The notes under the pieces were generated by a model. The model saw nothing but the letters and a program-made list of their open reading frames with translations. It was not told the DNA's origin and did no database searches. 64,000 bases of DNA from Coleofasciculus sp. FACHB-T130 (GTDB lineage Bacteria > Cyanobacteriota > Cyanobacteriia > Cyanobacteriales > FACHB-T130): NCBI RefSeq assembly GCF_014695375.1, contig NZ_JACJOG010000002.1:1-64000 (forward strand), in the 5' to 3' direction. Below, piece after piece: positions 34,316-48,444 of this stretch. Numbering within the stretch: position 1 is the stretch's first letter; each line of letters begins with the position of its first letter. A program made the position numbers and the translations under genes.

Positions 34316-34400
34316 GAAAATAAATTAAACAAAATCAGTAACTATTTTACAAACAATCAAGCTTCTTTTAATTGCTCATGAATTCAATAATAAACAGTAA

Positions 34401-35156
34401 TTATTTAGGCGATTTTATTGCTTTACCAATATACATAACTGAAGTATTGTTACTAATTCCTACTTGAAATTTGCCCGTTTTTTTGTAGTGAATATAAGCA
34501 AGCACGTTTTGGTAAATGCTTTCACCAAATATATTAAACCCTTTAATTTCTATACTGTTAAATCCCTGGCTATGCATTAAGCTTGTTAATTCTTGCGGCT
34601 CAATAAACTTATTCCAATCGTGAATACCACGAGGAATTTCCTGCAAAATATTTTCTAATAGCCAAATCATTATTAATTTGGAGGCGAAAGTTTTATTAAT
34701 TGTGTCAAATAGAAACAAGCCGTTTGGCTTTAAAATTCTATAAATTTCAGAAAGTGTCTGACGTAAATCTGCAATATGCTCTAAAACATCAACACAAACG
34801 ACAATATCAAAAGTATTAGCTTGATAAGGGAGGTTTTCAGAATATCCGTGTTGATAGTCAATCTGAAGTCCGCTTAGAGATGCGTGATCTTGAGCTTGTT
34901 GAATACATTTAGCCGATTGATCGATTCCTGAGACTTTTACTCCTCTTTTCGCCATAAATTCGCAGGTAAATCCGCCGCCACATCCAACATCTAAGGCTTG
35001 CAATCCCTGCCAATTTGAAACATAGCGATCGAAAAAATCAAATCGGGGTTGATTGAGATGATAGAGAGCATAGATTTTCTCATCTTCCTGCCACCATCTA
35101 TCTGCACTCAAATCATAAAATTTTAAGTCGTTTTTTTTCAAGTGTTTGTTTTGCAT
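34401..35156 (-). CDS. UbiG-like SAM-dependent O-methyltransferase
   Basis: 251 residues. Class I methyltransferase motifs are ALDVGCGGGFTCEFMAKRG (SAM-binding motif I near residue 54), VSGIDQSA (motif II) and DIVVCVDVLEHI (motif post-II). The later segment IPRGIHDWNKFIEPQELTSL matches the UbiG family closely, as does the N-terminal YDLSADRWWQEDEKIYALYH. UbiG makes ubiquinone in proteobacteria, but cyanobacteria use plastoquinone, so the real substrate is likely another hydroxylated ring. The gene is AT-richer than its neighbours and has few HIP1 sites, which could mean recent transfer. Confidence 0.85.
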   Translation of the reverse strand: MQNKHLKKNDLKFYDLSADRWWQEDEKIYALYHLNQPRFDFFDRYVSNWQGLQALDVGCGGGFTCEFMAKRGVKVSGIDQSAKCIQQAQDHASLSGLQIDYQHGYSENLPYQANTFDIVVCVDVLEHIADLRQTLSEIYRILKPNGLFLFDTINKTFASKLIMIWLLENILQEIPRGIHDWNKFIEPQELTSLMHSQGFNSIEIKGFNIFGESIYQNVLAYIHYKKTGKFQVGISNNTSVMYIGKAIKSPK

Positions 35157-35479
35157 CCTGTATCTGGGAAGGTTGATAGGACAAACGCATCTAAGGTAAT
35201 TTTAGTCGCTGCTTCAGTGGGAAAATTATGCTGACATTGCGAACTCAATCATTCCACTTCTAGCCTATCGGCATCTAGTAGGATGTCCTTTATGAAAGGT
35301 AGCGATCGCTATCTTCGCTGCATCTGAGCGATAATAGCTAGCGTATACTGCCCGCAGCCACGCTTCTCGCTTTGTCTCCAGAAGCATAAATCTTATAATC
35401 TAAAATCAAAAATATTATCACAAGCCTCGTACAATGAAATATTGCTGGGAATATTGCTGGGACTCAAGGAGCTGATTTT
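35157..35479. promoter_or_regulatory. Divergent region upstream of ccmK3
   Basis: 323 bp between the methyltransferase and ccmK3, expected to hold the ccmK promoter. It contains a HIP1-centred palindrome at about 35320 and an exact tandem 12-mer, ATATTGCTGGGA twice, shortly before ccmK3. AAGGAG lies about 8 bases before the ccmK3 ATG. No regulator site can be named. Confidence 0.45.
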
Positions 35480-35791
35480 ATGCCACAGGCAGTGGGAACG
35501 ATTGAAACGTTAGGGTTCCCAGCTGTACTAGCAGCAGCAGACGCAATGGTTAAAGCTGGTGCAGTCACGCTGGTTCATTATGCACTTGTAGAAAAAGGGA
35601 ACTTTATGGTCTCCGTTCGGGGAAAAGTTTCTGAAGTCAACATCGCTGTTGAGGCAGGGATTAAAGCCGCAGAGACAGTCTACGGAGGTCAAGTGATCTC
35701 CCACTACATCATCCCCAATCCTACGGAAAATGTTGAAACTGTTATGCCCATTCATTTCACCCAAAAAGTTGAACAGTTCCGTATGTCGTAG
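35480..35791 (+). CDS. ccmK3: Carboxysome shell protein CcmK3
   Basis: A 103-residue single BMC domain, with [20 protein letters not shown] at the N-terminus. It differs from CcmK1/K2/K4 at the pore: the usual RxGSxR-type loop (residues 36-41) is LVEKGN, and Arg28 of K4 is Ala. This is the hallmark of CcmK3, which is reported not to form stable homohexamers but to mix with CcmK4 in the beta-carboxysome shell. It is followed by ccmK4 in the usual satellite-locus order, away from any main ccm operon in this window. Confidence 0.92.
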   Translation: MPQAVGTIETLGFPAVLAAADAMVKAGAVTLVHYALVEKGNFMVSVRGKVSEVNIAVEAGIKAAETVYGGQVISHYIIPNPTENVETVMPIHFTQKVEQFRMS

Positions 35792-36005
35792 TTGGTTAAC
35801 AATCGGAACTTAATTGCGAGTAGACATTGCCAGCTATCCCAGCAATTATTGGGATTTTGTTTACTCGATTGTTTGGTCTTTTGTCAAGTCAAAAAGTGGG
35901 AAAGTAAAGGCAAGGGGCATTTCGATCCAAAGGTGCATCGAAAATTCGTACAATTAGTTCTTAGCTCTACGTAACTCAATTAAATTCAAATTCAGGAGAT
36001 AGCCA

Positions 36006-36341
36006 ATGCCACAGGCAGTTGGATCGATAGAAACGAAAGGCTTTCCTGCTGTCCTAGCAGCGGCAGATGCGATGGTTAAAGCTGGAAGAGTTACCCTAGT
36101 CGGATATATCCGAGTTGGTAGCGCCCGTTTTAATGTCAATATTCGGGGCGATGTTTCAGAAGTGAAAACCTCAATGGAGGCGGGAATTGCCGCAGTAGAA
36201 AAAGTTTATGGTGGCGTTGTAGAATCCTGGGTGATCATTCCCCGTCCCCATGAAAATGTCGTGAGTGTACTGCCAATTGGCTTCACTGAAGACGTGCAAC
36301 AGTTCCGAGATGCTGTCGAACAGCCGATAGTACGCAGGTAG
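36006..36341 (+). CDS. ccmK4: Carboxysome shell protein CcmK4
   Basis: A 111-residue BMC-domain hexamer subunit. It starts [20 protein letters not shown] and keeps the pore loop RVGSAR (36-41), then [20 protein letters not shown] and a short C-terminal extension. It forms facets of the beta-carboxysome shell and probably admits bicarbonate and RuBP. AGGAG lies about 7 bases before the ATG. Spacing to ccmK3 is 214 bp, enough for its own promoter. A terminator hairpin lies 95 bp after the stop. Confidence 0.94.
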
Positions 36342-36435
36342 TGGAAACATCTGTTAGCGAAAGGCGCGTAAGCAGCGCCTGCTGAGTAGAAAGACTGCCT
36401 GCAAGAGAGCGTCCAAAATCATAGCTGCTGTTACA

Positions 36436-36467
36436 ACCCGTTTTCTTCAAGAAAATGGGTTTTTTTA
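36436..36467 (+). terminator. Intrinsic terminator after ccmK4
   Basis: A 10-bp stem ACCCGTTTTC/GAAAATGGGT (one G-T pair) with a 5-nt loop is followed by a run of T. It lies in the 460-bp gap that separates the ccmK pair from the nucleotidyltransferase gene; the rest of that gap is AT-rich with no supported gene. Confidence 0.85.
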
Positions 36468-36801
36468 GCAATATTTTTTGAATAAGACTCACTTTCCCTT
36501 TAAACCGGAGAAAACCTCTCTCTTACAAGTGGTTAATGGTGTTCGTTTTTCACCTCACCCTAAAGGTAATTTCTTAAACCCTTGATTCGTCAGGGTTCTA
36601 AAATTTGGAGTTTCTCGTCTCGTGAAAATTTCGTGACGCTAGCATCGTACAAATACTGACAAAAACTAGAAATTACTAAATCTTTACTAAAATTCCCTAT
36701 ATTTTTATCAGAACTATACAAATAATGCCGTAGTTGTATATAAAAATTGATGAATTGTGAATATTACTACCAGACTTAGCTAAATTTAGTGGAGCCAGAT
36801 A

Positions 36802-38049
36802 TTGCAAACATTACTTGCTAAAGCTTCATCGGTAGGTACTCGCCCTGAAATCGAAGTGCTGCTAATCTGTGCCAGCACTCGGATGGAATTGGAAAGAGTT
36901 GAGCGGCTAGTCACTTTACTCCAGGAAAATCATATAGATTGGGCAGAACTGATGCAAATGGCGACTGAGCATAGGGTGATGCCACTTTTGTATTCGAACC
37001 TAAACAGCACCTGTCCGGAAGCGGTTCCGAAGAATATTCTGGCTAAGTTGCGGGCTGATTTTCAAACCCTCACGCGACGCAGCCTATTTTTGAGCGGCGA
37101 ACTGGTTAGACTTGTGAATCTATTTGAAGCACAAGGAATTCCGGTTCTACCTTTCAAAGGTCCAGTATTAGCCGCTTCTGCCTACGGTAATTTGTTGAGA
37201 AGACAGTTCTGGGATTTAGACATTCTGGTGCAAGAAAGAGACATCGAAAGGGCAAAGGCGCTGTTTTTGTCTCAAGGATACCAGATGAAAATCGAGCGCA
37301 TCGAAGTGACTCAAGAACAGGAAGCGGCTTTTGTGCGATCGCCTCATATTCATCAATTTGTACGCGAAGCCGCCTATCCATTTAGAAACCACCAGAAAGG
37401 AGTGTTGGTGGAACTGCACTGGGGAGTAATGCCAAAGTATTTTTCTTTTCCCATCGATTCTAAAGAATTGTGGGATGACCTAGAGCCAGTCTCCATTGCT
37501 GGAACGACAGTTCCCAACCTCTCGCCAGAGAATTCGTTGCTAACCATCTGCGGACACGGAACCAAAGACTGTTGGACGCAACTGGCAAGAATCTGCGACG
37601 TAGCCGAACTTATCCGCAGCCATCCGCAGCTAGATTGGGTCAAACTGATGCAGCAAGCTAGCGCTAAGGGCGGTCAGCGAATGTTGTTTCTAGGTTTAAT
37701 GCTGGCACATCGTCTTCAGGGAACTGCCCTGCCAGATGATGTTTGGCAAAAGATTCAGGCTGACCCAGCGGTAGAATTGCTGGCGGCTGAAGTATGCGAA
37801 CAGCTTTTCCGTTCGTCGGACGGATTTGTTAAAGACGGGACAACCACCCGCTTCCATTTAAAAGCCAGAGAACGCCTGATTGACAGGCTGCGGTACTCTC
37901 TGAAATTAGCAATCACTCCGACTACTACCGACTGGTTGCTACTACCTTTGGCGGAATTTCCAGCTTTCCTTTACTATTTGCTGCGACCACTCAGGCTAAT
38001 AGGAGAGCAAATATTAAAAAGATTCAAGCTGAGTAAAAAAAACTTATGA
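36802..38049 (+). CDS. PF14907-type nucleotidyltransferase-like protein
   Basis: 415 residues. The start codon is TTG, supported by GGAG 7 bases upstream. Features of this family: HRVMPLLYSNL near residue 57, then LVNLFEAQGIPVLPFKGPVL and FWDLDILVQERDIERAKALF, in which WDLD carries the predicted metal-binding acidic pair. ELHWGVMPKYFSFPIDSKEL and ELIRSHPQLDWVKL follow. The family resembles nucleotide-transfer enzymes and appears in lasso-peptide tailoring loci, where one member is reported to add a sugar to the peptide. It opens the 36.8-44.6 kb cluster; a second member closes it. Terminator-like hairpins separate it from the PqqD gene. Confidence 0.8.
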   Translation: MQTLLAKASSVGTRPEIEVLLICASTRMELERVERLVTLLQENHIDWAELMQMATEHRVMPLLYSNLNSTCPEAVPKNILAKLRADFQTLTRRSLFLSGELVRLVNLFEAQGIPVLPFKGPVLAASAYGNLLRRQFWDLDILVQERDIERAKALFLSQGYQMKIERIEVTQEQEAAFVRSPHIHQFVREAAYPFRNHQKGVLVELHWGVMPKYFSFPIDSKELWDDLEPVSIAGTTVPNLSPENSLLTICGHGTKDCWTQLARICDVAELIRSHPQLDWVKLMQQASAKGGQRMLFLGLMLAHRLQGTALPDDVWQKIQADPAVELLAAEVCEQLFRSSDGFVKDGTTTRFHLKARERLIDRLRYSLKLAITPTTTDWLLLPLAEFPAFLYYLLRPLRLIGEQILKRFKLSKKNL

Positions 38050-38070
38050 TTTTCATGCTTAAACTATAAA

Positions 38071-38117
38071 ATTTATTCCTTAATCAAAATGGTAGTAAGT
38101 AAGGAATAAATCTTTTT
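38071..38117 (+). terminator. Terminator hairpin after the first nucleotidyltransferase gene
   Basis: Perfect 12-bp stem ATTTATTCCTTA/TAAGGAATAAAT with a 17-nt loop, followed by CTTTTT. It starts 21 bases after the stop codon. Confidence 0.65.
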
Positions 38118-38131
38118 CAATTTTAAACCGG

Positions 38132-38184
38132 ATACATATTATGAGCTTTAAATTTAAACTAAATCAAAAGCTCATAATATGTAT
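38132..38184. repeat. Perfect 18-bp AT-rich inverted repeat
   Basis: Arms 38132-38149 and 38167-38184 are exact complements (left arm begins ATACATATTATGAGC) around a 17-nt AT-only spacer. It lies between the first nucleotidyltransferase gene and the PqqD gene, close to where the PqqD promoter should be. The surrounding 309-bp gap holds no gene. Confidence 0.8.
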
Positions 38185-38358
38185 TGTTTGATAATTAATA
38201 TTATTTAAAAGCGTTAGTTTATAATATAAGCGGAATCATTATAAAGTCTATAAATTTAGTAATAAACCTAATTGGTTATACCTTGACATTAGAATATCTC
38301 AAGGTTAGCTTAGGGTTAAGAAAAGCGAAACAAAGCTTGATAGTATAGCAAAAAAATC

Positions 38359-38820
38359 ATGAATCATTCAGAGATATTTAAGGCGAATGCTCCTAAAGTT
38401 GTCCACGAAACGATTGATGGTGAAGTTGTAATCGTCAACTTGGATAAGGGAGATTATTATAGCTTAGTAAAAGTTGGGGCTGATATTTGGGAAGAAATTA
38501 TTAAAGGTACTTCCAAAAGCAATATTATCCAAAAAATAATCCAGTGCTACGATGGCGATCGCCAAAATATTGAAAATACTGTCAATGATTTTATTGCCAG
38601 ATTGCAGCAAGAAGAACTCATTACTCTTGATGGCACCGAAGATCCTAAAAATTTAAATATAGACAGCGCACCAAGCACCACAAACGACAATCCTGAAAAG
38701 CTGAGTTTTTCACCCCCAACTTTAGAAAAATATACAGATATGGAAGAATTGCTAGCTTTAGACCCCATTCACGAAGTGAATGAGGTGGTGGGCTGGCCTA
38801 ATGTTAAAGTTGAAGCCTGA
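38359..38820 (+). CDS. PqqD/RRE-like protein with leader-like C-terminal tail
   Basis: 153 residues in three parts. Residues 1-92 are a PqqD-type winged-helix fold (GEVVIVNLDKGDYYSLVKVG, then a helical part ending LQQEELITL); this fold is the RiPP recognition element that binds precursor leaders. Residues 93-115 are a Pro/Ser/Asn-rich linker. Residues 116-153 are a tail with FSPPTL, matching the [YF]xxPxL docking motif of lasso leaders, then YTDMEELLALDPIHEV and GWPNVKVEA. The tail reads like a precursor peptide attached to its own recognition domain. It precedes the HPr-kinase-like gene by 107 bp. Fold is confident; the precursor idea is inference. Confidence 0.85.
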   Translation: MNHSEIFKANAPKVVHETIDGEVVIVNLDKGDYYSLVKVGADIWEEIIKGTSKSNIIQKIIQCYDGDRQNIENTVNDFIARLQQEELITLDGTEDPKNLNIDSAPSTTNDNPEKLSFSPPTLEKYTDMEELLALDPIHEVNEVVGWPNVKVEA

Positions 38821-38927
38821 TTGAATCAGCATTTGGCATCATTATCAGCAGCTTCAAGGTGTATTGGGAAGGGGCAGTCGTCAGGATTTGCCCCTAGGTT
38901 TCAGCTAATTCCTTAAGTTTTTTCAAC

Positions 38928-40010
38928 ATGATGACTAACGAGTTGGCATCTGAGATTGCCACTAAAACAGAAGCGAAAGACCCTTTAGCCTTTTTTAATA
39001 CGGTTTATGAATTATACGAAAAAGCTGAAGCTGCATCTGGTTCTATTGACCGTTTTTATTGCTTAGGCGGGTTTAAAATTCGGTTGCGTTTTGCTGGTTC
39101 AGCTTTAATTTCCTACATGACACCTGCTTTAGGACATTTAGCTACAGAACCCGTTTCAGATCCAGCGCTGACAGTTTGTTTGTGGGATAGCGCCTCGACA
39201 AACACCGTAATGCCACCTCCACCTTGGCAAATAAATCATCATCATCCAAAGCGTGGGGAAATTATCGGGTTTACTAATGAGCGCATTCATACCAGTTTCC
39301 AATGGGGAGCGTTTGCGTTAAGTATTTTAGATAGCGATCGCAACCTGGGAATATATTGGGTTGAGACAACCGAACAACTTCCTTACTGGGAAGCAGGTTC
39401 TCCGCTACGGACAATTTTTAACGTCTGGATGAGTAAGCGGGGACTGCAACTGGTTCATGCGGGTGCAGTTGGAATGCCCAGTGGCGGCGTGTTGCTAGTC
39501 GGAAAAGGGGGGTCTGGTAAATCAACTACAGCTTTAACCTGCCTTAACTCTGAGCTTTTCTATGCCAGCGACGACTATAGTTTGATTACTTCCGACCCCA
39601 CTCCAACTGTTTTTAGCATTTACAGCACTGGCAAAAAAAATGCCGATGATGTTCAAAGATTGCCGTTTCTCGCTAAGGCAATTAGCAATAGCGATCGCTT
39701 AGATTCGGAAAAAGCGCTTTATTTCATCAACGACCATTTTCCCGAAAAAATCTTGCCCAGTTTTCCGCTTCAAGCTATCTTAATCCCCCGCATTACTGGG
39801 GGAAGCAATACCACGTTGAAAGCTACCTCATCAGCGGCAGGATTGGCAGCACTTGTTCCTAGTACAATCCTGCAATTGCCCGGTGCAGGTAAGGAAGCTT
39901 GTGAGCTGATGACAAAAACTGTTAGCCAGCTACCTTGTTATTATCTAGAACTCGGCACTGACCTGAAGCAAATTCCTGAAGTCATTTTAAGCTTACTTTC
40001 AAAGCAATAG
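38928..40010 (+). CDS. HPr-kinase-like serine kinase
   Basis: 360 residues. The C-terminal half is an HPr kinase/phosphorylase-like ATPase core: a P-loop GKGGSGKST at 192-200, preceded by VHAGAVGMPSGGVLLV and followed by the acidic loop YASDDYSLI. The N-terminal half is a separate unnamed domain. Relatives in lasso-peptide clusters phosphorylate the C-terminal residue of the peptide. There is no classical PTS gene nearby, so control of HPr is unlikely. It is 3 bp from the following glycosyltransferase and 107 bp from the PqqD gene, so all three probably form one transcript. Confidence 0.85.
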   Translation: MMTNELASEIATKTEAKDPLAFFNTVYELYEKAEAASGSIDRFYCLGGFKIRLRFAGSALISYMTPALGHLATEPVSDPALTVCLWDSASTNTVMPPPPWQINHHHPKRGEIIGFTNERIHTSFQWGAFALSILDSDRNLGIYWVETTEQLPYWEAGSPLRTIFNVWMSKRGLQLVHAGAVGMPSGGVLLVGKGGSGKSTTALTCLNSELFYASDDYSLITSDPTPTVFSIYSTGKKNADDVQRLPFLAKAISNSDRLDSEKALYFINDHFPEKILPSFPLQAILIPRITGGSNTTLKATSSAAGLAALVPSTILQLPGAGKEACELMTKTVSQLPCYYLELGTDLKQIPEVILSLLSKQ

Positions 40011-40013
40011 CCC

Positions 40014-40784
40014 ATGAATAATAAGGAATTCTTCGTTAGTGCGATCGTCCCTGTCTATAACGGAGAACAGTTTCTAGCAGAAGCTATTCAAAATATCCTC
40101 AATCAAAACTATCAGCCTCTAGAAATCATTGTTGTTGACGATGGCTCAACAGATAAAACGGCGGAAGTTGCTGCTCGCTATAAAGATAGTATTCACTATG
40201 TTTATCAGCCTAATAGCGGGCCATCAGCAGCTCGTAACCGTGGTTTAAGGATGGCAAAAGGGGATGCGATCGCTTTTCTAGATGTCGACGACTTGTGGTC
40301 TGAAAATAACCTAAAATTGCAAACAGATTACTTAGTATATAACCCATCAGTAGAGATTGTTCAAGGATTAATCCAAAACCTGAAAATTTCTCAGTTGACA
40401 CCAGAAGGTGCAATCTTTGAAAAACATTATCAGCCTTATAATTACATCAACTTGGGAAGTGCCCTTTATCGAAAATCCGTTTTTGATAAAATTGGCTTAT
40501 TTGATGAAAGTTTAAGTTTTGCTGAAGATGTTGATTGGTTTGTAAGAGCCTGGGAAAATAGGGTGTCAAAGGTGGTGCTGGAACAGGTGACGCTTTTTTA
40601 TCGAAGACACCAAGACAATATGACTGTGGGAAAAAATTTAATTGAATTGGGGTTTATTAAAATTTACAAGAAACATCTCGATCGGTGCAGGCAAAAAGGG
40701 CACTTTGCTAATAGTTCGCTACCAGGAATGCCTAAGATAAACGAATATCTGGGCGCGCCTCCGAATACGCCCAAATTTTTTTGA
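40014..40784 (+). CDS. GT2 family glycosyltransferase
   Basis: 256 residues with the GT-A layout: SAIVPVYNGEQFLAEAIQNI, the nucleotide-binding VVDDGSTDKTAEVA, NSGPSAARNRGLRMAKGD and the metal-binding DVDD in IAFLDVDDLW. A C-terminal acceptor region has SFAEDVDWFVRAWE and RRHQDNMT. No membrane helix is seen. It transfers a sugar from a nucleotide donor to an unknown acceptor. It is 3 bp after the kinase gene and about 40% similar by eye to the next glycosyltransferase, suggesting an old duplication. Confidence 0.93.
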   Translation: MNNKEFFVSAIVPVYNGEQFLAEAIQNILNQNYQPLEIIVVDDGSTDKTAEVAARYKDSIHYVYQPNSGPSAARNRGLRMAKGDAIAFLDVDDLWSENNLKLQTDYLVYNPSVEIVQGLIQNLKISQLTPEGAIFEKHYQPYNYINLGSALYRKSVFDKIGLFDESLSFAEDVDWFVRAWENRVSKVVLEQVTLFYRRHQDNMTVGKNLIELGFIKIYKKHLDRCRQKGHFANSSLPGMPKINEYLGAPPNTPKFF

Positions 40785-40839
40785 TGAAGAGCTAATTAGA
40801 CAGCAAATTTTAAAAAATCAAGTAGAAGGAGGTATCGGA

Positions 40840-41547
40840 ATGGAAAATCATCTACTAATCAGTGTCATCATCCCAGTATATAACTGCGAGCGCTATTTAG
40901 CTGAAGCGATTGAAAGCGTACTAGCTCAAACCTATCAATCCATAGAAATTATTGTCGTAGACGATGGTTCAACCGATGGTAGTGCAGAAGTCGCAAAACG
41001 CTTTGGCTCATTAGTGCGATACTATTTTCAAACTAACAGTGGTAGTGCTGCTGCCCGCAATCACGGCATAGAATTATCACAAGGTAACTTCTTTGCTTTT
41101 CTCGATGCTGATGATTTGTGGGTAGAAGATAAACTGGCAAGTCAAATGACAGCTTTTGAAAGCGAACCTGAACTAGATCTAGTATTCGGATTAGTCGAAC
41201 AGTTTTATAGCCCAGACTTAGAGGAGAGTATGAGGGCAAAAATCCACTGTCCTACTGAGTTAGTACCGGGACATATCCCCTCAGCCTTACTGATAAAACG
41301 AGATGCTTTTTTCCGTGTAGGCTCTTTTGAACCTAACTGGACTATAGCAGAATTTGCCAGTTGGTATGTGCGTGCTGTTGAGTTAAAACTTCGGATGAAG
41401 GTTTTACCATATTTGGTTGCAAAGCGACGTATTCATAAAAAAAATAAGGGAATTACAGAGCGCCAATTCCAAACTGAATATATTAAAATTCTTAAAGCTT
41501 CTCTTGACCGACGACGCGCCGCAGGTGATCGGGTAAACAACTCATAG
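40840..41547 (+). CDS. GT2 family glycosyltransferase
   Basis: 235 residues, the paralogue-like neighbour of the preceding gene: SVIIPVYNCERYLAEAIESV, VVDDGSTDGSAEVAKRFGSL, NSGSAAARNHGIELSQGN and DADD in AFLDADDLW. A strong Shine-Dalgarno, AAGGAGGT, precedes the ATG. The C-terminal half keeps GSFEPNWTIAEFASWYVRAV but has Ala-Glu-Phe where its neighbour has the acidic EDVDW, so acceptor handling may differ. It is 8 bp ahead of the SDR gene. Confidence 0.93.
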   Translation: MENHLLISVIIPVYNCERYLAEAIESVLAQTYQSIEIIVVDDGSTDGSAEVAKRFGSLVRYYFQTNSGSAAARNHGIELSQGNFFAFLDADDLWVEDKLASQMTAFESEPELDLVFGLVEQFYSPDLEESMRAKIHCPTELVPGHIPSALLIKRDAFFRVGSFEPNWTIAEFASWYVRAVELKLRMKVLPYLVAKRRIHKKNKGITERQFQTEYIKILKASLDRRRAAGDRVNNS

Positions 41548-41555
41548 TTATTGCC

Positions 41556-42446
41556 ATGAAAATCAATTTTAAAATTCGTTTAAAAGCCGCCTTAAAATCC
41601 TTCATTAATCCATCTCTATCTATCCCTCCAAAGCCAATTATTCAGCTTCAAGAAGTAGAGCCTTCTAGGGTAATAGATAATCAACTGTTAGCAGGGAAAA
41701 ATGTTTTGATAACTGGGGCTGGTAAAAATATTGGCAGAAGCATTGCCCTAGAGATGGCTAAACAAGGTGCAAATGTTTTTTTCACTGAAATTGATCGGGA
41801 AAGATGTGAAAAATTAGAACAAGAATTAACTAGCTATTCAGTTCAAGTTAAAAGTTTTCTTTCAAATATTACAAACAATGAAGATGTAGATGCTTTAAAA
41901 ACTTTTTTTGTGCAGAGCAATATTACTATTGATATACTGATTAACAATGCAGGTATTCAATTTGAAACAATAGGCATAAAAAATCTAAATTTAGATGAAT
42001 GGCATAAAACTTTTAATACAAATGTTTTCGGTCCCATGTATCTAACGAAGCTGATCTCAATCATGATGATAGATAAGCAAATTCAGGGAACTATTATATT
42101 TATTACTTCTTTACACCAAGAGACACTTGTACGTTGGCTTAGTTATAGTTCTTCAAAAGCTGCCTTAAAAATGATTATAGAAGAATTGGCTATCGACTTA
42201 GCAGCCTATGGGATCAGAGTGAACGGAATAGCTCCCGGTTGGGTAGCGGAAGATGACCAGGGAATTCCCCTCCCTCATAAATATACGCCGCTGCATCAAA
42301 GTTCAATAAGTCCTCGTTATATTGGTCGAGCGGCTGTTTATTTAGCCTCAGACTATTTTTCTAAATTTACTACGGGAACAGTGTTAAAGATTGATGCAGG
42401 ACTATCATTATATAATTATCGTGTTAGCCAACATCCATCTCAGTAG
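41556..42446 (+). CDS. Short-chain dehydrogenase/reductase
   Basis: 296 residues. A 45-residue extension precedes the Rossmann fold, which opens with VLITGAGKNIGRSIALEMAK, followed by the acidic cofactor residue in FFTEIDRERC. NNAGIQF and the catalytic Ser-Tyr-Lys set (FITSLHQE, then YSSSK) follow, as does GIRVNGIAPGWVAEDDQGIP. It therefore keeps an intact SDR active site and probably uses NAD. The glucose-dehydrogenase-like branch is closest by motif. The 3' end overlaps the next frame. The gene is AT-rich compared with the rest of the window. Confidence 0.9.
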   Translation: MKINFKIRLKAALKSFINPSLSIPPKPIIQLQEVEPSRVIDNQLLAGKNVLITGAGKNIGRSIALEMAKQGANVFFTEIDRERCEKLEQELTSYSVQVKSFLSNITNNEDVDALKTFFVQSNITIDILINNAGIQFETIGIKNLNLDEWHKTFNTNVFGPMYLTKLISIMMIDKQIQGTIIFITSLHQETLVRWLSYSSSKAALKMIIEELAIDLAAYGIRVNGIAPGWVAEDDQGIPLPHKYTPLHQSSISPRYIGRAAVYLASDYFSKFTTGTVLKIDAGLSLYNYRVSQHPSQ

Positions 42447-43437
42447 AAGAACCATATTATTTTTTATTTTCTTACTTGGATTTGGCTTTTTCATAAGTGT
42501 ATTCAGTCAAAATAAAAGAAAAATGTTTTTGCTAGAGAAATGGATAAAAACTCTATTAGCTTCTGGTTGTCTAAATGCAAAATCTCAATGTTTTAAAACT
42601 ATTTTCCCTAAAAAAGTAAAGCTCGAACGGGTGGCAACCGGATTTAAATTTACTGAAGGACCCATTTGGTTTGCTGAAGAAAAGTATCTCCTCTTTAGTG
42701 ATATTCCAGCTAACAAAATCTTTAAACTGACTCCCAGTAGTGACGTAACAGTCTTTAGAGAGCCTAGCCATAATTCCAATGGTTTGACTAGAGATAAGCA
42801 AGGACGACTCATTGCTTGTGAACACGGAACGCGCCGTGTCACCCGCATGGAAAAAGATGGTTTGATTACTGTCTTAGCTGAAAAATTTCAAGGTCAGAAA
42901 CTGAATAGTCCCAACGATATTGTCGTGAAAAGTGACGGTGCTATCTACTTCACAGATCCGCCTTATGGCATCAAACCCGAACAGCAGGAACAACCAATCC
43001 AGGGGGTTTACCGCCTCTCTCCTGATGGCAAAGAAATTATTGTCGTAGCCGACGATTTTGATAAACCCAATGGGCTAGCATTTTCACCGGATGAAAAAAA
43101 GCTTTATATCGACGATTCTGAACGCCGTCATATTCGCGTGTTCGATGTTCAAGCTGACGGTAAACTTGCTAATAGCTGCATCTTTTACAATATTAATGGG
43201 AAAAGACCGGGTTTACCTGATGGGATGAAAGTAGACGTGCAAGGACATATCTACTGCACAGGTGCAGGAGGCGTGTGGGTTTTTGATCCAGAAGGGAATC
43301 ATTTGGGAACAATTGTGACTCCGGAGGTGCCAGCGAATTGTGCTTGGGGAGATGATGATTTGCAAAGTCTTTATATTACTGCTGGCACTTCTGTTTACAA
43401 AATTCGAGTAAATGTTCCAGGCATCAAAGTGCCTTAA
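42391..43437 (+). CDS. SMP-30/gluconolactonase-like protein
   Basis: Up to 348 residues. The six-bladed propeller core starts near residue 70: FTEGPIWFAEEKYLLFSDIP, HNSNGLTRDKQGRLIACEHG, LNSPNDIVVKSDGAIYFTDP and NGLAFSPDEKKLYIDDSERR carry the metal-binding Glu, Asn and Asp of the family. It should hydrolyse a lactone or a related ester. The start is uncertain: ATG 42391 and GTG 42421 include a hydrophobic stretch, TILFFIFLLGFGFFISVFS, that would act as a signal or anchor. ATG 42523 gives a soluble form. The first options overlap the SDR gene. With the upstream SDR it suggests an oxidise-then-open-lactone sugar step. Confidence 0.87.
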   Translation: MMQDYHYIIIVLANIHLSRRTILFFIFLLGFGFFISVFSQNKRKMFLLEKWIKTLLASGCLNAKSQCFKTIFPKKVKLERVATGFKFTEGPIWFAEEKYLLFSDIPANKIFKLTPSSDVTVFREPSHNSNGLTRDKQGRLIACEHGTRRVTRMEKDGLITVLAEKFQGQKLNSPNDIVVKSDGAIYFTDPPYGIKPEQQEQPIQGVYRLSPDGKEIIVVADDFDKPNGLAFSPDEKKLYIDDSERRHIRVFDVQADGKLANSCIFYNINGKRPGLPDGMKVDVQGHIYCTGAGGVWVFDPEGNHLGTIVTPEVPANCAWGDDDLQSLYITAGTSVYKIRVNVPGIKVP

Positions 43438-43473
43438 TTGATTACCATCGTTTAAAATTTTCAATTACAAAAG

Positions 43474-44604
43474 ATGCGTAAAATGAATCTATATAATAAG
43501 GATAGCTGTGACTGGCTTAATTCCGAGCAAAAATTGCTTTTGCGGGCAGCACTGTTGCAGGGAGAAGAGGCAATTGATTCTTGGAATCAATGGAAAGCAT
43601 CTGCCGATATTGAGAATCTCGATGTAGAATCCTATCGATTGCTGCCTTTACTTTATCGCAACTTATCCGCACATGGCGTGACGGATCTGCATATGGCAAG
43701 ACTGAAGGGAGTTTACCGACGCACATGGTGTGAAACCCAAGTTTTGTTGCAACAAATCGCAGCTATTATCAGTTGTTTTCAGAATGATGGTATCACAACA
43801 ATGCTGCTCAAGGATGCAGCTTTGAATATACATTATTACAAAGATTATGGCTCCCGAATGATACATAATTTTGATCTTTTAGTTCATCCAACAGATGCTT
43901 TAGCAGCCATAAGTTTGTTACAAAAAATTGGCTGGAGAGCTAAAGAAAAAATACCAGTTAAAATTACGCCTTTCTCTCATAATCTAGGATTTGAGAATGA
44001 ATTAAAACAACAGTTTAATCTTCGCTGGCATCTGTTCGCAGATGGTTTTCAAAAAGATGCTGAAAAATATTTCTGGGATAGTGCGATATTAACCAACCTG
44101 GATGACTTACCAACTTATGTTTTAAATCCTACCGAGCAGCTATTGTACGTTTGTGTATATGGAGGAATGAGTAATTTTGTTTTTCCAATTAGTCGGCTAG
44201 CTGATGCCGCAATACTTCTTAACTCATACCAATCAGAAATTGATTGGAACCGACTGGTAGCTTTAGCCCAAAACTACCGCTTAATTTTGCCCCTACAAAA
44301 TGTATTGACGAAATTACATGAAATCCTAAATACGCCAATCCCTCTGTCGATTTTACAAGAAGTACAAAATATACCAATTTCTAAATTTGAGCGCAGCGAA
44401 TATCAGCTCACGAGTAGACCAGAAAAATCAGTCCACGAGCGTTTGATAAGCAGATATCTACAATATTCAAGAGCAGTAAATACAGATAATTTTAAATTAA
44501 ACTTTTTAGGTTTTCCTAGATATCTACAATATATCTGGGGTTTGGAACACTTATGGGAAGTTCCATTGCAAGCAATGATTCGGGGTATAAAAAGGCTCTG
44601 GTAA
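43474..44604 (+). CDS. PF14907-type nucleotidyltransferase-like protein
   Basis: 376 residues; a second ATG three codons in is equally possible. It shares the layout of the gene at 36802: SYRLLPLLYRNLSAHG, then DGITTMLLKDAALNIHYYKD, SRMIHNFDLLVHPTDALAAI with NFDL in place of WDLD, RWHLFADGFQKDAEKYFWDS and the C-terminal helical part. The replacement of WDLD by NFDL leaves one acid less, so catalysis may be altered. It closes the cluster that began with its relative. No terminator is clear in the 220 bp before htpX. Confidence 0.75.
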   Translation: MRKMNLYNKDSCDWLNSEQKLLLRAALLQGEEAIDSWNQWKASADIENLDVESYRLLPLLYRNLSAHGVTDLHMARLKGVYRRTWCETQVLLQQIAAIISCFQNDGITTMLLKDAALNIHYYKDYGSRMIHNFDLLVHPTDALAAISLLQKIGWRAKEKIPVKITPFSHNLGFENELKQQFNLRWHLFADGFQKDAEKYFWDSAILTNLDDLPTYVLNPTEQLLYVCVYGGMSNFVFPISRLADAAILLNSYQSEIDWNRLVALAQNYRLILPLQNVLTKLHEILNTPIPLSILQEVQNIPISKFERSEYQLTSRPEKSVHERLISRYLQYSRAVNTDNFKLNFLGFPRYLQYIWGLEHLWEVPLQAMIRGIKRLW

Positions 44605-44827
44605 GAGCGATCGCTTTCACCTGAAAAGAGATGAAGAAAACCAGGGTTGGAAGCGATCGCCATCAATGCACTAGCAGATAACTATAAGCGTCTCCTAAAG
44701 CCCTTTACACATTTCCCTACCAGCCGGAAGAGGCAAGTCTCATACATGAGATAGAGCCTAGACACTCCAGAATCTGAGAACTTAAGAACAAATAAAGAAA
44801 ATCTTCAACAACTGCTTTCTAATCATC

Positions 44828-45718
44828 ATGTTTGGAAACCAAATTAAGACAGCAGCGTTGCTGGGACTCCTCAGCGGTCTTCTGGTTCTGGGTGGCTATT
44901 ATCTGGTAGGCAACGAGCAGGGGCTATACCTAGGTCTGGCTTTTGCTGCATTCAGTAGTTTTAGCTCCTGGTACTATTCTGACCAAGCCGCCTTGATGGC
45001 GTATCGCGCCCAACCGCTAGAGCGTCAGGAGGCTCCAGAACTCTACGATATGGTAGCTTCTTTGAGCCAAAGGGCGGGGATTCCCATGCCGAAACTGTTT
45101 TCAGTGCCAACCAAATCCCCCAATGCTTTTGCAACCGGACGAGATCCGGATCATGCTTCTGTGGCAGTGACTCAAGGGATTATAGAATTACTCTCCCGCG
45201 AAGAACTTGAAGGTGTTTTGGCTCACGAACTTACCCACGTCAAAAACCGCGACACTTTAACTCAGGCAGTTGTAGGCACCATCGCTGGAGCGATTACTTT
45301 TGTCGGACGGATTCTCACTTTGGGAGCGCTCTACGGCCCTGTCACCCGCGATGACCGCCGAGGTGGAAACGCTTTGGGTGCCTTGTTTCTAATCGTTTTG
45401 GCTCCTATTACTGCGGCGCTAATCCAGTTTGCGATTTCCCGCACCAGGGAGTATTCTGCTGACTTGGGTTCGGCTGAAATCACGGGGAATCCTTTGGCGC
45501 TTGCCAGTGCGTTGGAGAAGCTTGAGGCAATGGGTCATCAGATTCCGATGAACGGCAATCCCACGATGTCGCCGCTACTGATTGTCAATCCTATCTCGAC
45601 AAAAGGGTTGCAATCTCTTTTCCGTACCCATCCCCCGACTGAGGATCGGATTCGTCGTCTCGTAGAATTGGCTCAGCAACAAAAGCAACAAAAGCAAATG
45701 ACTCCAGCAATCGCATAA
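44828..45718 (+). CDS. htpX: HtpX-type M48 membrane metalloprotease
   Basis: 296 residues. Two N-terminal membrane helices (LLGLLSGLLVLGGYYLVGNE and a second at about 34-50) precede the zinc site HELTH at 133-137 within LAHELTHVKNRD. A glutamate ligand is expected in the later SRTREYSADLGSAE. A further hydrophobic pair follows (AVVGTIAGAITFVGRILTLG, then LFLIVLAPITAALIQFAISR). HtpX degrades misfolded membrane proteins, with its active site on the cytoplasmic face. An intrinsic terminator follows the stop. Confidence 0.95.
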   Translation: MFGNQIKTAALLGLLSGLLVLGGYYLVGNEQGLYLGLAFAAFSSFSSWYYSDQAALMAYRAQPLERQEAPELYDMVASLSQRAGIPMPKLFSVPTKSPNAFATGRDPDHASVAVTQGIIELLSREELEGVLAHELTHVKNRDTLTQAVVGTIAGAITFVGRILTLGALYGPVTRDDRRGGNALGALFLIVLAPITAALIQFAISRTREYSADLGSAEITGNPLALASALEKLEAMGHQIPMNGNPTMSPLLIVNPISTKGLQSLFRTHPPTEDRIRRLVELAQQQKQQKQMTPAIA

Positions 45719-45751
45719 TGTGCAAGCAGTGCTGGTGATGCTTGATTTTAG

Positions 45752-45773
45752 CCGGTGGTAACGCCGGTTTTTT
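45752..45773 (+). terminator. Intrinsic terminator after htpX
   Basis: Six-bp stem CCGGTG-GTAA-CGCCGG, with a GNRA tetraloop, followed by TTTTTT. It lies 33 bases after the htpX stop and inside the extended frame of the next gene, which argues that the next gene starts after it. Confidence 0.88.
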
Positions 45774-45798
45774 ATTGAATGAGGATGCTAAACCGGAG

Positions 45799-46554
45799 AT
45801 GTCTCGCGTTTCGATTATTATTCCCACGCTGAATGAGGCGACGTGCTTGGAACGCACGCTGCGCCAGTTGAATTTGCTAGATCCTCCAGCTTGGGAAGTG
45901 CTGGTGGTAGATGGGGGAAGTGACGATGAGACAGTTGCGATCGCCCAGCGGATCTTACAAGCGATCGCCCCGTCATCTCAAGCGCGTGTCCTCTGTTGTG
46001 ATGTTCGCGGACGTTCAGTGCAGATGAACCGAGGCGCAGAGGCGGCGACGGGAGATATCCTGTGCTTCTTACACGCAGATACTTCGGTTCCAGATGATTT
46101 TGTGGCAGTGGTTGAGCAAACTTTAGCCGATCCATCTGTTGCTGGCGGCGGGTTTATTTCTTTGATGACAGGTTCCCAGACGACGCGCTGGGGAGTTTCG
46201 CTGCATAATTACCTCAAAACTTACTACGCGCCGCTGCTTTTCCGACCTCGTTTGTTTTTTCAGGGGTTGCGATTGTTATTTGGCGATCAGGTGATGTTTT
46301 GTCGTCGCGCCGATTTCTGGAAATGTGGCGGATTTGATCCGGCATTGCCAATTATGGAGGAAGCGGATTTGTGCCTGAAGTTGGTGCAACGAGGTCGGAT
46401 TCGTCAAGTGAATCGAGTTGTGCAAAGTAGCGATCGCCGTGTGGCAAAATGGGGTTCGCTGAAGGCTACCGCGATATATCTCTACATCGGCTTTCTTTGG
46501 GGTATCGGCGTTGAAGCAACTTACCTGAAAAAGTTTTATGAGGAAATTCGCTAA
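45799..46554 (+). CDS. GT2-like glycosyltransferase (TIGR04283 type)
   Basis: 251 residues from the chosen ATG. A start at 45742 would read through a clear intrinsic terminator, so it is rejected. Motifs: VSIIIPTLNEATCLERTLRQ, LVVDGGSDDETVAIAQRIL, GRSVQMNRGAEAATGDILCF and DTSVPDDF after LHA. Lower half: LFFQGLRLLFGDQVMFCRRA, then GFDPALPIMEEADLCLKLVQ and RVAKWGSLKATAIYLYIGFL. The family name comes from arsenosugar-associated enzymes, but no arsenic gene is visible here, so the acceptor is open. Confidence 0.85.
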   Translation: MSRVSIIIPTLNEATCLERTLRQLNLLDPPAWEVLVVDGGSDDETVAIAQRILQAIAPSSQARVLCCDVRGRSVQMNRGAEAATGDILCFLHADTSVPDDFVAVVEQTLADPSVAGGGFISLMTGSQTTRWGVSLHNYLKTYYAPLLFRPRLFFQGLRLLFGDQVMFCRRADFWKCGGFDPALPIMEEADLCLKLVQRGRIRQVNRVVQSSDRRVAKWGSLKATAIYLYIGFLWGIGVEATYLKKFYEEIR

Positions 46555-46600
46555 TTCGTTATTAGTTATAGAATCTGTTTAATTTCCCATAATAAAAGAA

Positions 46601-46675
46601 CCCCACCCCCCAACCCCTCCCCGCTTGCGGGGAGGGGAGCCAGAGCCGCAGGCGTTGGCGGGGTGGGATTCCGGG
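46601..46675. repeat. GC-rich hairpin repeat between convergent genes
   Basis: Perfect 11-bp stem CCCCTCCCCGC/GCGGGGAGGGG (46614-46624, 46627-46637) with a 2-nt loop, embedded in an outer CCCCACCCC/GGGGTGGG pair. This is a repeat type found dispersed in cyanobacteria. It lies between the glycosyltransferase and DUF547 genes and could block both transcripts. Confidence 0.75.
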
Positions 46676-46732
46676 GAGTGGGTAATTACTGAATTTGATA
46701 TCAAAGTGCATCTGCTGTCGCTCAACTAACAA

Positions 46733-47437
46733 CTAATAACTCTTTTTTTCATTCAGATTCCAGTCGTAATAGAGATAGGAAATCGGCGTTGAAGCGTCAA
46801 GAGGCACGTCGGTTTTTAAATACAAGCGGATGTATTCAGGAATTGAAGGTGCGACTTTCAGTAAATCGCTCTTGTACCACTTGAAAATTTTGCTACAGTA
46901 AAGCGTTCCCGTTTGGAAATCGTAGCGAACTTTATCGGGATTATTGATAAAACGGCTGGCGTCATCCTCTAACTGAGTCCGCACCGATTCCGGAAAGTAT
47001 GCACCGTTTCGCAACAACGGACAACCGATGGATGCACAAACAAGGGCGAAGTGGATGAGGGGTTCGTCAAATTCGCGCCGGAGAATGTCATGTTCGATTT
47101 GATTGAGGCTGTAGCGCTTACCTGCAAAGGAATAGACGGGACGGATAAAGAACAACAGGAAGGCAATCCAGTTGGGAATTCCTAAAATCTTCGGTCGGAT
47201 GGAGGGGATGGGATAGCGTTCTAGAACTTGATTGATCGCGATCGCATTATATAAATTCAGCCACAGCGCTAACCGTTCATCTAGGTTGGGATAATCCCCC
47301 AAATCTACTTCCTGCAAGGAATTCAGCCATTGTGAAAGCGCTTGCGATCGCTCTGAAGACCAAGCATGATAATCGACGCGACCTTCTAGATCCACGTATC
47401 GGCGCAGTAGCTCATCCCAAACTGTAAAGTCGATCAT
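46733..47437 (-). CDS. DUF547 domain-containing protein
   Basis: 234 residues. DUF547 hallmarks: VDYHAWSSERSQALSQWLNS, then LWLNLYNAIAINQVLERYPI, and the pattern YSLNQIEHDILRREFDEPLI, HFALVCASIGCPLLRN, which carries the conserved C and H residues of the family (HFALVCAS, GCP). It is soluble with no signal peptide. The activity is undefined; resemblance to papain-like folds has been suggested for the family. It stands alone, convergent to the glycosyltransferase. Confidence 0.88.
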   Translation of the reverse strand: MIDFTVWDELLRRYVDLEGRVDYHAWSSERSQALSQWLNSLQEVDLGDYPNLDERLALWLNLYNAIAINQVLERYPIPSIRPKILGIPNWIAFLLFFIRPVYSFAGKRYSLNQIEHDILRREFDEPLIHFALVCASIGCPLLRNGAYFPESVRTQLEDDASRFINNPDKVRYDFQTGTLYCSKIFKWYKSDLLKVAPSIPEYIRLYLKTDVPLDASTPISYLYYDWNLNEKKSY

Positions 47438-48444
47438 GGCTCAATACTTTCTCCGAGCGGACAAATCTAACCCCATATTAGAGTTACTCCCAAAACCCGC
47501 CAAGAAATAAATTTCTACAGCTTATATCCAAAGTTTTTTTTAATGGACTGAAATCTTTATCTAGTCAGTATGAGACTCCTATGCAAAAGGAATTTGGCTA
47601 TTAGCCAGAGATTTTTATCTCTGGAGGTATTGCGACTGATGCAAGATGTGTGGTTCCCTATAAGTGAAGGAAGAACAACTAACCTTTCCTCTTCTTTTAG
47701 AGGATGTTTTGAAAGGTAGGGTTAGTTGGAAAAAAGCTCACAAAGCGGAAGCTGAAATTGCAAACATTAACACCACGCGCACGCGAATGACTAGCGCATA
47801 TTAAGCGCAATCTAACGTGTGTTTATCTGGCGATTATCAAAGAATACTCGAAACATCGGAGGCTTTTATCTATATAGCTATTACTCGGATTATAACTGCA
47901 TAACAAACATTGTCTTTGACTTATTTAAATTTTAAAGAAACCTTTCTTGGTTTGATGTTTACCAATCGCTTAAGTGTTCAACCCTTTATTTTTGGTAATT
48001 AATCTATAAAAATAGAAATCATAGGCAAACAATAAGTTTTATTATTAACAATTATTTAATTGATTAAAAGCTGATAAAAACATGGGTTAAGCTATCGAAC
48101 AGTAAAAGTATCTCCTTGTAAGGGGTTCAAAATTTGCTCTGCTGCAAGGGACAAAAAAACCTTATAGTGCTTCTCGCTTGAGTGAAGCACACTCAAGCCC
48201 TAACTTCCAATAGAGTTCCTGGAATCGAGAAACGGGCTAATTTCAAAGCCTCTCTCTGATTTTAAAGAAAGAGCAAAACTTTACCGTATATACGTGAGAA
48301 CGGCTATATTATTTTTCTTCTACCTAGAGTGCACCAAAAGAACTACTCACTGTACTTATAGCCTCGTAATAACGTCTCCTAATAACGACAAATAATTCGT
48401 TATCCGGCATCTGGAGAGCGAGAAATAATCAAAGGAAAAAATGC
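47438..48444. other. Long gene-free stretch upstream of the CHAT-STAND gene
   Basis: About 1 kb of AT-rich DNA between divergent genes. I see no coding frame with support. Structures present: a perfect 8-bp hairpin CCAGAGAT-TTTT-ATCTCTGG (47605-47624), an imperfect inverted repeat at 47676-47729 (AACTAACC against GGTTAGTT), and two overlapping hairpins at 48167-48198. The unusual length suggests a long leader, a small RNA, or remains of decayed genes. Confidence 0.5.
48167..48198 (+). promoter_or_regulatory. Two mutually exclusive hairpins upstream of the CHAT-STAND gene
   Basis: Hairpin A pairs GTGCTTC (48167-48173) with GAAGCAC (48184-48190). Hairpin B pairs GCTTGAGTG (48176-48184) with CACTCAAGC (48190-48198). 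They share bases and cannot form together. No T tract follows, so a transcription-attenuator role is not shown; mRNA switching is possible if the promoter lies upstream. Confidence 0.3.

Follow-up and report, generated by a model that had tools for sequence, protein, structure and literature searches.

What can an operon make that carries tailoring genes of the kind known from lasso-peptide clusters and no cyclase? This question is raised by eight genes at positions 36802-44604 of a 64,000-nucleotide stretch of DNA, the whole of which is called the window here, from Coleofasciculus sp. FACHB-T130 (contig C2, NZ_JACJOG010000002.1; genome of 6.2 Mb, 100% complete). All eight open reading frames (ORFs) were verified and their domains were assigned by Pfam and NCBIfam; they are collinear and lie on one strand (+), as given in a preliminary description made from the sequence alone. 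That description had likened the locus to a lasso cluster minus its cyclase. This undersells it: the description recognised a PqqD-like protein and overlooked its conserved C-terminal tail, and the leader-like tail marks out a family of its own, one with a very wide distribution. The operon probably makes a modified peptide without a ring-closing enzyme, since its PqqD protein has a conserved tail of its own and stands beside a kinase and sugar-transfer enzymes. In its fuller form, our reading is that of a horizontally acquired, cyclase-free peptide-tailoring operon, resembling those for ribosomally synthesized and post-translationally modified peptides (RiPPs) and built around a 'self-leading' RiPP recognition element (RRE) whose tail is itself modified; to this fuller form we give slightly less than half of our confidence. 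The features at its centre are:

38359-38820, + strand: PqqD/RRE protein of 153 amino acids with conserved leader-like C-terminal tail (PF05402, 55 bits; RRE fold nearest to TbiB1)
38395-38628, + strand: RRE (PqqD) domain, residues 13-90 (PF05402 match, alignment and model)
38707-38799, + strand: tail motif FSPPTLEKYTDMEELLALDPIHEVNEVVGWP, residues 117-147 (conservation in relatives; covariation with the RRE)

The C-terminal tail of the window protein reads FSPPTLEKYTDMEELLALDPIHEVNEVVGWPNVKVEA. Its consensus comprises about 35 residues, [FY]xxPxLxxYxDMxxLLxLDPIH[DE]Vx(2-4)GWP, and has two halves, first a leader-like part ([FY]xxPx[LVI]xx[YFH]xD[ML]) and then the conserved segment LLxLDPIH[DE]Vx(2-4)GWP. 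Full-length relatives of the PqqD protein were present in 26 of 195 genomes sampled from the order, and the tail is kept in all 29 untruncated cyanobacterial relatives. Counted outside the letters of the search pattern, the information amounts to 2.40 bits per column in the tail versus 1.86 in the PqqD domain. Relative to DPIH, an alignment of 129 rows has F/Y at position -18, P at -15 and L/V/I/F/M at -13, and the complete motif [YFW]xxPx[LVIFAM] occurs in 89 of these 129 tails. As a chance control, 100 shuffles of the window were scanned with the tail pattern and gave 0 matches. No free-standing tail was found among 44,063 open frames. At L229:1198-1662, a variant tail was observed in which DPIH...GWP is replaced (FRDMEQLLALDPPMPDAGEIPWELSDD).

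The fold of the domain and the position of the tail both point to leader-like binding. The window PqqD scores 54.9 bits against PF05402 (cut-off 23.4), the RRE model is confident (predicted local distance difference test, pLDDT, >90), and its best solved fold matches are TbiB1-leader complexes (Z 14.3, root-mean-square deviation 2.6, 88 aligned). The groove and pocket residues Y34, L36, I43, F78, L82 and L87 are kept. Lasso-type leaders follow the rule [Y/W]xxPx[L/V/I/F/A] (PMC13381572), which the first half of the tail obeys if Phe is permitted at the first place. In the PbaB1-PbaA structure, the leader places W-15 next to Y69 and binds D68/E70 through K-18; its L-10 occupies a pocket of Y39, L41, F83, L87 and L92, and at Y38-N40 the sheet is extended by its residues -9 to -7 (PMC13381572). 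By ungapped alignment to the window PqqD, Y69 falls on Y64, D68/E70 on C63/D65, the pocket on Y34/L36/F78/L82/L87 and Y38-N40 on residues 33-35, while K-18, W-15, L-10 and residues -9 to -7 of the PbaA leader fall on K114, F117, L122 and 123-125 of the tail. An AlphaFold model (pLDDT about 82 for residues 111-130) contains a strand at 123-125 and short strand residues at 115-116 and at 64-65; the tail would find its strand partner in the RRE groove.

Covariation connects the same two parts. E85-K124 is the strongest covarying pair of the protein (129 rows), with 68 acid-base, 6 base-acid and 0 like-charge combinations. On a tree built without both columns, 9 of 14 changes at position 85 fall on a branch on which position 124 changes as well, compared with 1.2 expected co-changes, the best result of 1672 RRE-tail pairs; the P value of this branch test (7e-8) is rough, because branches were treated as equal. 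The pairs D65-K114 and Y64-F117 take ranks 3 and 4 of 924 pairs and map to the solved PbaB1-leader contacts E70/K-18 and Y69/W-15. A lasso locus in another genome of the order (L235, G068:C61) presents a comparable architecture. Its PqqD (5226-5798) is fused via a linker to VWTTPALASYGTMATLVHGSGGSG..., a lasso-style leader plus core, and the leader motif is placed where the window tail has FSPPTLEKYTDM. The cyclase of this 11 kb contig (9302-11233) reaches 583 bits against NF033535 (cut-off 525). Thus, fusions of lasso B1 protein and precursor do occur in nature. The contig also carries sulfotransferase-like genes.

The seven genes that accompany the PqqD gene are as follows:

36802-38049, + strand: NTP_transf_5 (PF14907) nucleotidyltransferase-like protein 1 (PF14907, 219 bits; motif KGP...DLDILV intact)
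38928-40010, + strand: HprK-like kinase (Walker A GKGGSGKST; conserved H177, D215/D216 and K262)
40014-40784, + strand: family 2 glycosyltransferase (GT2) a (Pfam GT2; DxDD motif present)
40840-41547, + strand: GT2 glycosyltransferase b (Pfam GT2; DxDD motif present)
41556-42446, + strand: short-chain dehydrogenase/reductase (SDR) oxidoreductase (Pfam SDR; TGxxxxIG and YxxxK present)
42391-43437, + strand: SMP-30/gluconolactonase-like protein (SMP-30/SGL; the annotated TTG start at 42391 overlaps the SDR gene, true start uncertain)
43474-44604, + strand: NTP_transf_5 (PF14907) protein 2 (PF14907, 113 bits; active-site motif degenerate, KD...NFDLLV)

The domain calls of the preliminary description hold for these genes. 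That of the kinase is below threshold (15.6 bits against PF07475, cut-off 33.3), but it is backed by its relatives, of which 31 of 66 match PF07475 at E<=1e-3, by the P-loop and DD motif, intact in nearly all cyanobacterial copies, and by its fold: the model (pLDDT 94) matches an ATP-dependent phosphoenolpyruvate carboxykinase over the full length (Z 18.6, 299 aligned). Phosphoenolpyruvate carboxykinase and HPr kinase are structural relatives from one superfamily. The two PF14907 genes of the operon are the only ones in the whole genome, and several relatives, too, have an NTP_transf_5 gene directly in front of the one for PqqD. In the downstream copy, the first Asp of the DxD-type motif is gone, which is also true of most cyanobacterial downstream copies, and the upstream copy is intact; therefore, only one of the two is likely active, and protein 2 is, judging by its motif, probably a non-catalytic partner.

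The association of the tailed PqqD with these enzymes extends far beyond the window. Using the tail only, a DNA scan of 84,980 species yielded at least 118 stretches. Among the 118 matches listed, to which the following counts refer, 103 have an in-frame tail at the C-terminus of a PqqD-length ORF, 1 is out of frame and 14 are DNA polymerase I, which show what a false tail match looks like. According to the record titles, the tailed PqqD occurs in at least 12 phyla, with matches in Cyanobacteria, alpha-, beta- and deltaproteobacteria, Bacteroidota, Acidobacteria, Chloroflexi, Planctomycetes, Verrucomicrobia, Gemmatimonadota, Actinobacteria, Firmicutes, Chlamydiae, Nitrospirota and Aminicenantes. 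About 102 of the tailed loci (<=8 kb each) contain HprK-like kinases (70), GT2 (70), NTP_transf_5 (49) and ABC transporters (20), and SDR and SMP-30 are almost absent. For 30 cyanobacterial tailed loci, the numbers are 27 for HprK-like kinases, 29 for GT2, 22 for NTP_transf_5, 15 for SDR and 13 for SMP-30. An MsbA-like ABC transporter is found in the loci of some relatives and is absent from the window operon. The association was also seen in a tail-blind test, in which 292 genomes of the cyanobacterial phylum were searched with the kinase alone (E<=1e-6) and the neighbours were then read, with no selection by tail. There, 22 of 24 HprK relatives were near a tailed PqqD (mostly adjacent, the remainder within about 6 kb), 1 was near a PqqD with a degenerate tail and 1 had none. 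This set covers distant small-genome relatives with 22-26% kinase identity, where the tail is YNDAQELLLADPIHEVKEETGWTPEK. In loci L192-L204 (family f47, small genomes), the HprK-like kinase itself carries a PqqD-like domain at its C-terminus, the end of which resembles a decayed tail.

These neighbourhoods bear on two other explanations. The locus could serve a cell-surface glycan, the PqqD protein merely scaffolding glycosyltransferases and the kinase acting on a sugar or a lipid carrier. GT2/GT4 are indeed the commonest neighbours in all phyla, beside oxidoreductases and others, and the clusters of linear polyphosphorylated peptides (LPPs) and of paeninodin are often found inside capsule loci (PMC13381572); however, the RRE retains its groove residues, the groove suits the tail, and both the kinase and the nucleotidyltransferase come from families that serve in peptide tailoring, so that we regard a glycan locus as unlikely. 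In the second explanation, maturation of the tail would yield a small peptide that works like a cofactor, comparable to PQQ and mycofactocin from conserved precursors, and serves oxidoreductases, for example the SDR encoded nearby. This would agree with DPIHxVxxGWP being strongly conserved from phylum to phylum and with the SDR gene adjacent in half of the cyanobacterial loci. However, the SDR is unlinked outside cyanobacteria, and by Pfam/NCBIfam there is neither a radical SAM enzyme nor a match to a peptidase family among the eight operon genes (HtpX is encoded outside the island described below), which makes a cofactor very improbable. The SDR/lactonase pair, proposed earlier as part of a sugar-modifying branch together with the glycosyltransferases, is present, yet it is a cyanobacterial accessory, nearly absent elsewhere, and not part of the core.

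Is the operon then only what remains of a lasso cluster after loss of the cyclase and the B2 peptidase? The PqqD, HprK-like and PF14907 families are common to both. The earlier observation that neither the cyclase nor the leader peptidase lies within 9 kb can be extended: the lasso B2 peptidase (PF13471, Transglut_core3) has no match in the whole genome, and the cyclase family PF00733 has none on the operon contig and matches on other contigs only, the best being a 647-aa AsnB-like ORF on contig C15. A B2 gene is present in 16 of 28 genomes with a tailed PqqD, always on another contig except in genome G120, where it is located about 10 kb from the tailed PqqD and beside a short tail-less PqqD of its own. 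B2 goes with the tail-less proteins: in the genomes with a tailed PqqD, 7 of 8 short tail-less PqqDs are within about 2 kb of B2 and 0 tailed ones are, and no B2 was found within 9 kb of a tailed PqqD in relatives. Asparagine synthase is not among the 25 neighbour families listed for other phyla, a list from which families with one or two members could escape. The same cyclase-free gene set is kept in many families and phyla; as the check proposed in the preliminary description had anticipated, co-occurrence without cyclase genes is repeated in many genomes, the genes stay clustered at homologous loci, and among these no locus with a tailed PqqD was found to have the pair of cyclase and peptidase. 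Due to this conservation and the separation of tailed PqqDs from B2, a decayed lasso cluster was rejected as highly improbable.

A separate precursor was searched for by clustering of small ORFs and a motif scan around 30 operons. No convincing one was found within 9 kb of the 30 tailed cyanobacterial loci, where short or unusual precursors could be missed; the candidates were chance or ordinary matches, one of them a ferredoxin. As a positive control, the same motif scan beside tail-less PqqDs recovered obvious lasso precursors, e.g. MKSAETKANSQGKLPYKKPTLTPYGSIQNITQGISGS (L226). Two short ORFs adjoining the tail-less PqqD of locus L243 (G172:C223) encode odd precursor-like peptides, in which a lasso-like WNTPxL leader precedes long RGG repeats.

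With no other substrate found and a leader-like mode of binding, the reading of the tail as self-substrate is favoured. In the mechanism we propose, the PqqD domain would act as a lasso-B1-type recognition element, and the leader-like start of the tail would lie in the leader groove of the RRE itself, in cis or in trans within a dimer. The groove-bound tail may then hold out the LLxLDPIH[DE]Vx(2-4)GWP segment for the operon enzymes: the HprK-like kinase would probably phosphorylate the tail peptide, the GT2 enzymes and the active NTP_transf_5 protein could next attach a sugar or a nucleotidyl group or process it, the SDR and SMP-30 proteins might join in in cyanobacteria, and the product might be exported by the MsbA-like ABC transporter in some relatives. 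We infer that the tail is a substrate rather than a docking arm only, as we do the modified residue, the order of steps, the product and its role. The most specific version, which we put forward tentatively, is that the near-invariant DPIHxVxxGWP is phosphorylated and glycosylated by the HprK-like kinase, the GT2 enzymes and the nucleotidyltransferase, that a single protein comprises both the RRE and the leader/substrate in at least a dozen phyla, and that the product is a conserved phospho-glycopeptide and not a variable natural product.

Several results weigh against a modified tail. The tail has no invariant Ser/Thr that would be an obvious target of the kinase; of 129 tails, 78 have T/S at position 126 and 38 have D/E. 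The tail hardly varies, whereas RiPP cores usually do, and a docking motif would behave in this way. The operon is without a leader peptidase. In locus L191 (1498-3366, genome G406), PqqD, tail, a second PqqD-like stretch and the HprK-like kinase form one open frame, so that the tail is internal. The enrichment of solved contacts over all tail-RRE pairs is modest (p 0.02), and column 64 is gap-rich. A hidden Markov model of the tail scores 0.3 bits against the lasso leader of L027, which is equalled by 54 of 2000 shuffles (p about 0.03); the similarity is too short for homology of tail and lasso leader to be proven by score. The near-invariance, the internal tail of L191 and the missing peptidase could also be explained by a docking or gating arm that occupies the RRE groove until it is displaced, or that recruits the kinase and transferases, the true substrate being an unlinked peptide or protein. 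The first two of these points favour this docking reading; the precursor scan, in which lasso precursors were recovered and no separate candidate appeared near the 30 operons, speaks against it, and we consider it rather unlikely.

Among known systems, the LPP clusters of Bacillota (lppA-K-B-S-D-N; Popov et al. 2026, PMC13381572) are closest. They are reported only from Bacillota, and their precursor is phosphorylated on a core serine (PMC13381572). Both systems have a discrete lasso-type RRE, an HprK-like kinase, the [Y/W]xxPx[L/V] leader motif and a linkage to glycosyltransferases, lack a cyclase and, in some relatives of the operon, share an MsbA-like exporter; the PF14907 proteins of the operon are candidate counterparts of the LPP NTP-transferase (LppN). 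LPP clusters have a separate precursor gene with a variable C-terminus and an SpI signal-peptidase-like enzyme that removes the leader, whereas the operon described here has a nearly invariant leader-like peptide fused to the RRE, no SpI peptidase and a distribution over many phyla. Phosphorylated lasso clusters of the paeninodin type share the RRE B1 protein, HprK-like kinase and a PF14907-like NTP-transferase, from which the operon differs by having no cyclase, no B2 peptidase and no separate precursor found within 9 kb. In the lasso locus L235, PqqD is likewise followed by a linker and, in the corresponding position, [W/F]xxPxLxxYxxMxxL, but a true lasso cyclase is present, the core is different, and no HprK gene was seen within the contig of 11 kb. 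HPr-rel-A (NCBIfam TIGR04352/TIGR04353) likewise pairs an HprK-related kinase with a PqqD family protein, but the window kinase reaches 18.7 bits against TIGR04352 (cut-off 200), and TIGR04353 is not among the matches of the window PqqD; a TIGR04353 search of 20 genomes gave no match, even in controls. In borosins types I-III (OphMA; PMC8429565), a core peptide is also fused to the protein that handles it, yet the fused partner there is a catalytic methyltransferase and here a non-catalytic RRE.

No NCBIfam model names the tailed-PqqD system, and no published description of the tail was found in a full-text literature search of partial coverage; apparently, the system is widespread and undescribed. 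Pathways with an RRE are normally recognised by the RRE and a separate, variable precursor, and a self-leader family would escape precursor-based mining. That the tail is nearly invariant even between distant phyla points to a physiological product or regulator that is conserved, and not to an antibiotic. A small PqqD with a defined tail also offers a simple candidate substrate for probing what HprK-like kinases and PF14907 'nucleotidyltransferases' do in peptide clusters.

How did the operon reach this genome? Horizontal acquisition, suggested earlier as a transfer, is well supported by an empty site in a same-genus genome.

36341-44710, no strand: presence/absence island of 8.37 kb, holding exactly the operon (the same-genus genome G039 has about 495 bp in its place)

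The flanks are colinear in G039 with about 92-95% identity, and window positions 34386-36340 and 44711-47603 lie 495 bp apart there; therefore, the operon is a clean presence/absence island. Its left part, up to the ccmK terminator at about 36470, is probably ancestral. The PqqD gene is also absent from four other genomes of the same family. By gene, the GC content is 0.35-0.45 for 38359-44604 and about 0.47-0.51 for most neighbours, which bears out the AT-rich 38-44 kb part noted before; the first gene (0.47) is not AT-rich. In Crinalium epipsammum PCC 9333, one relative is carried by a mobilizable plasmid of 44 kb, to which contig G048:C3 is equal in length.

Two further features are located between the first gene and the PqqD gene:

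38068-38114, no strand: inverted repeat with 15-nt arms, then T-rich DNA (possible terminator downstream of the first gene)
38132-38184, no strand: inverted repeat of 25 nt, 92% complementary, with a 3-nt loop (beside the terminator-like repeat)

For defence systems, no PADLOC match was obtained. Outside the operon, at window positions 48445-53367, a protein of 1640 aa is encoded in which CHAT protease-like, NACHT-like P-loop and WD40 repeat parts were recognised by eye, and which is possibly a conflict or cell-death protein.

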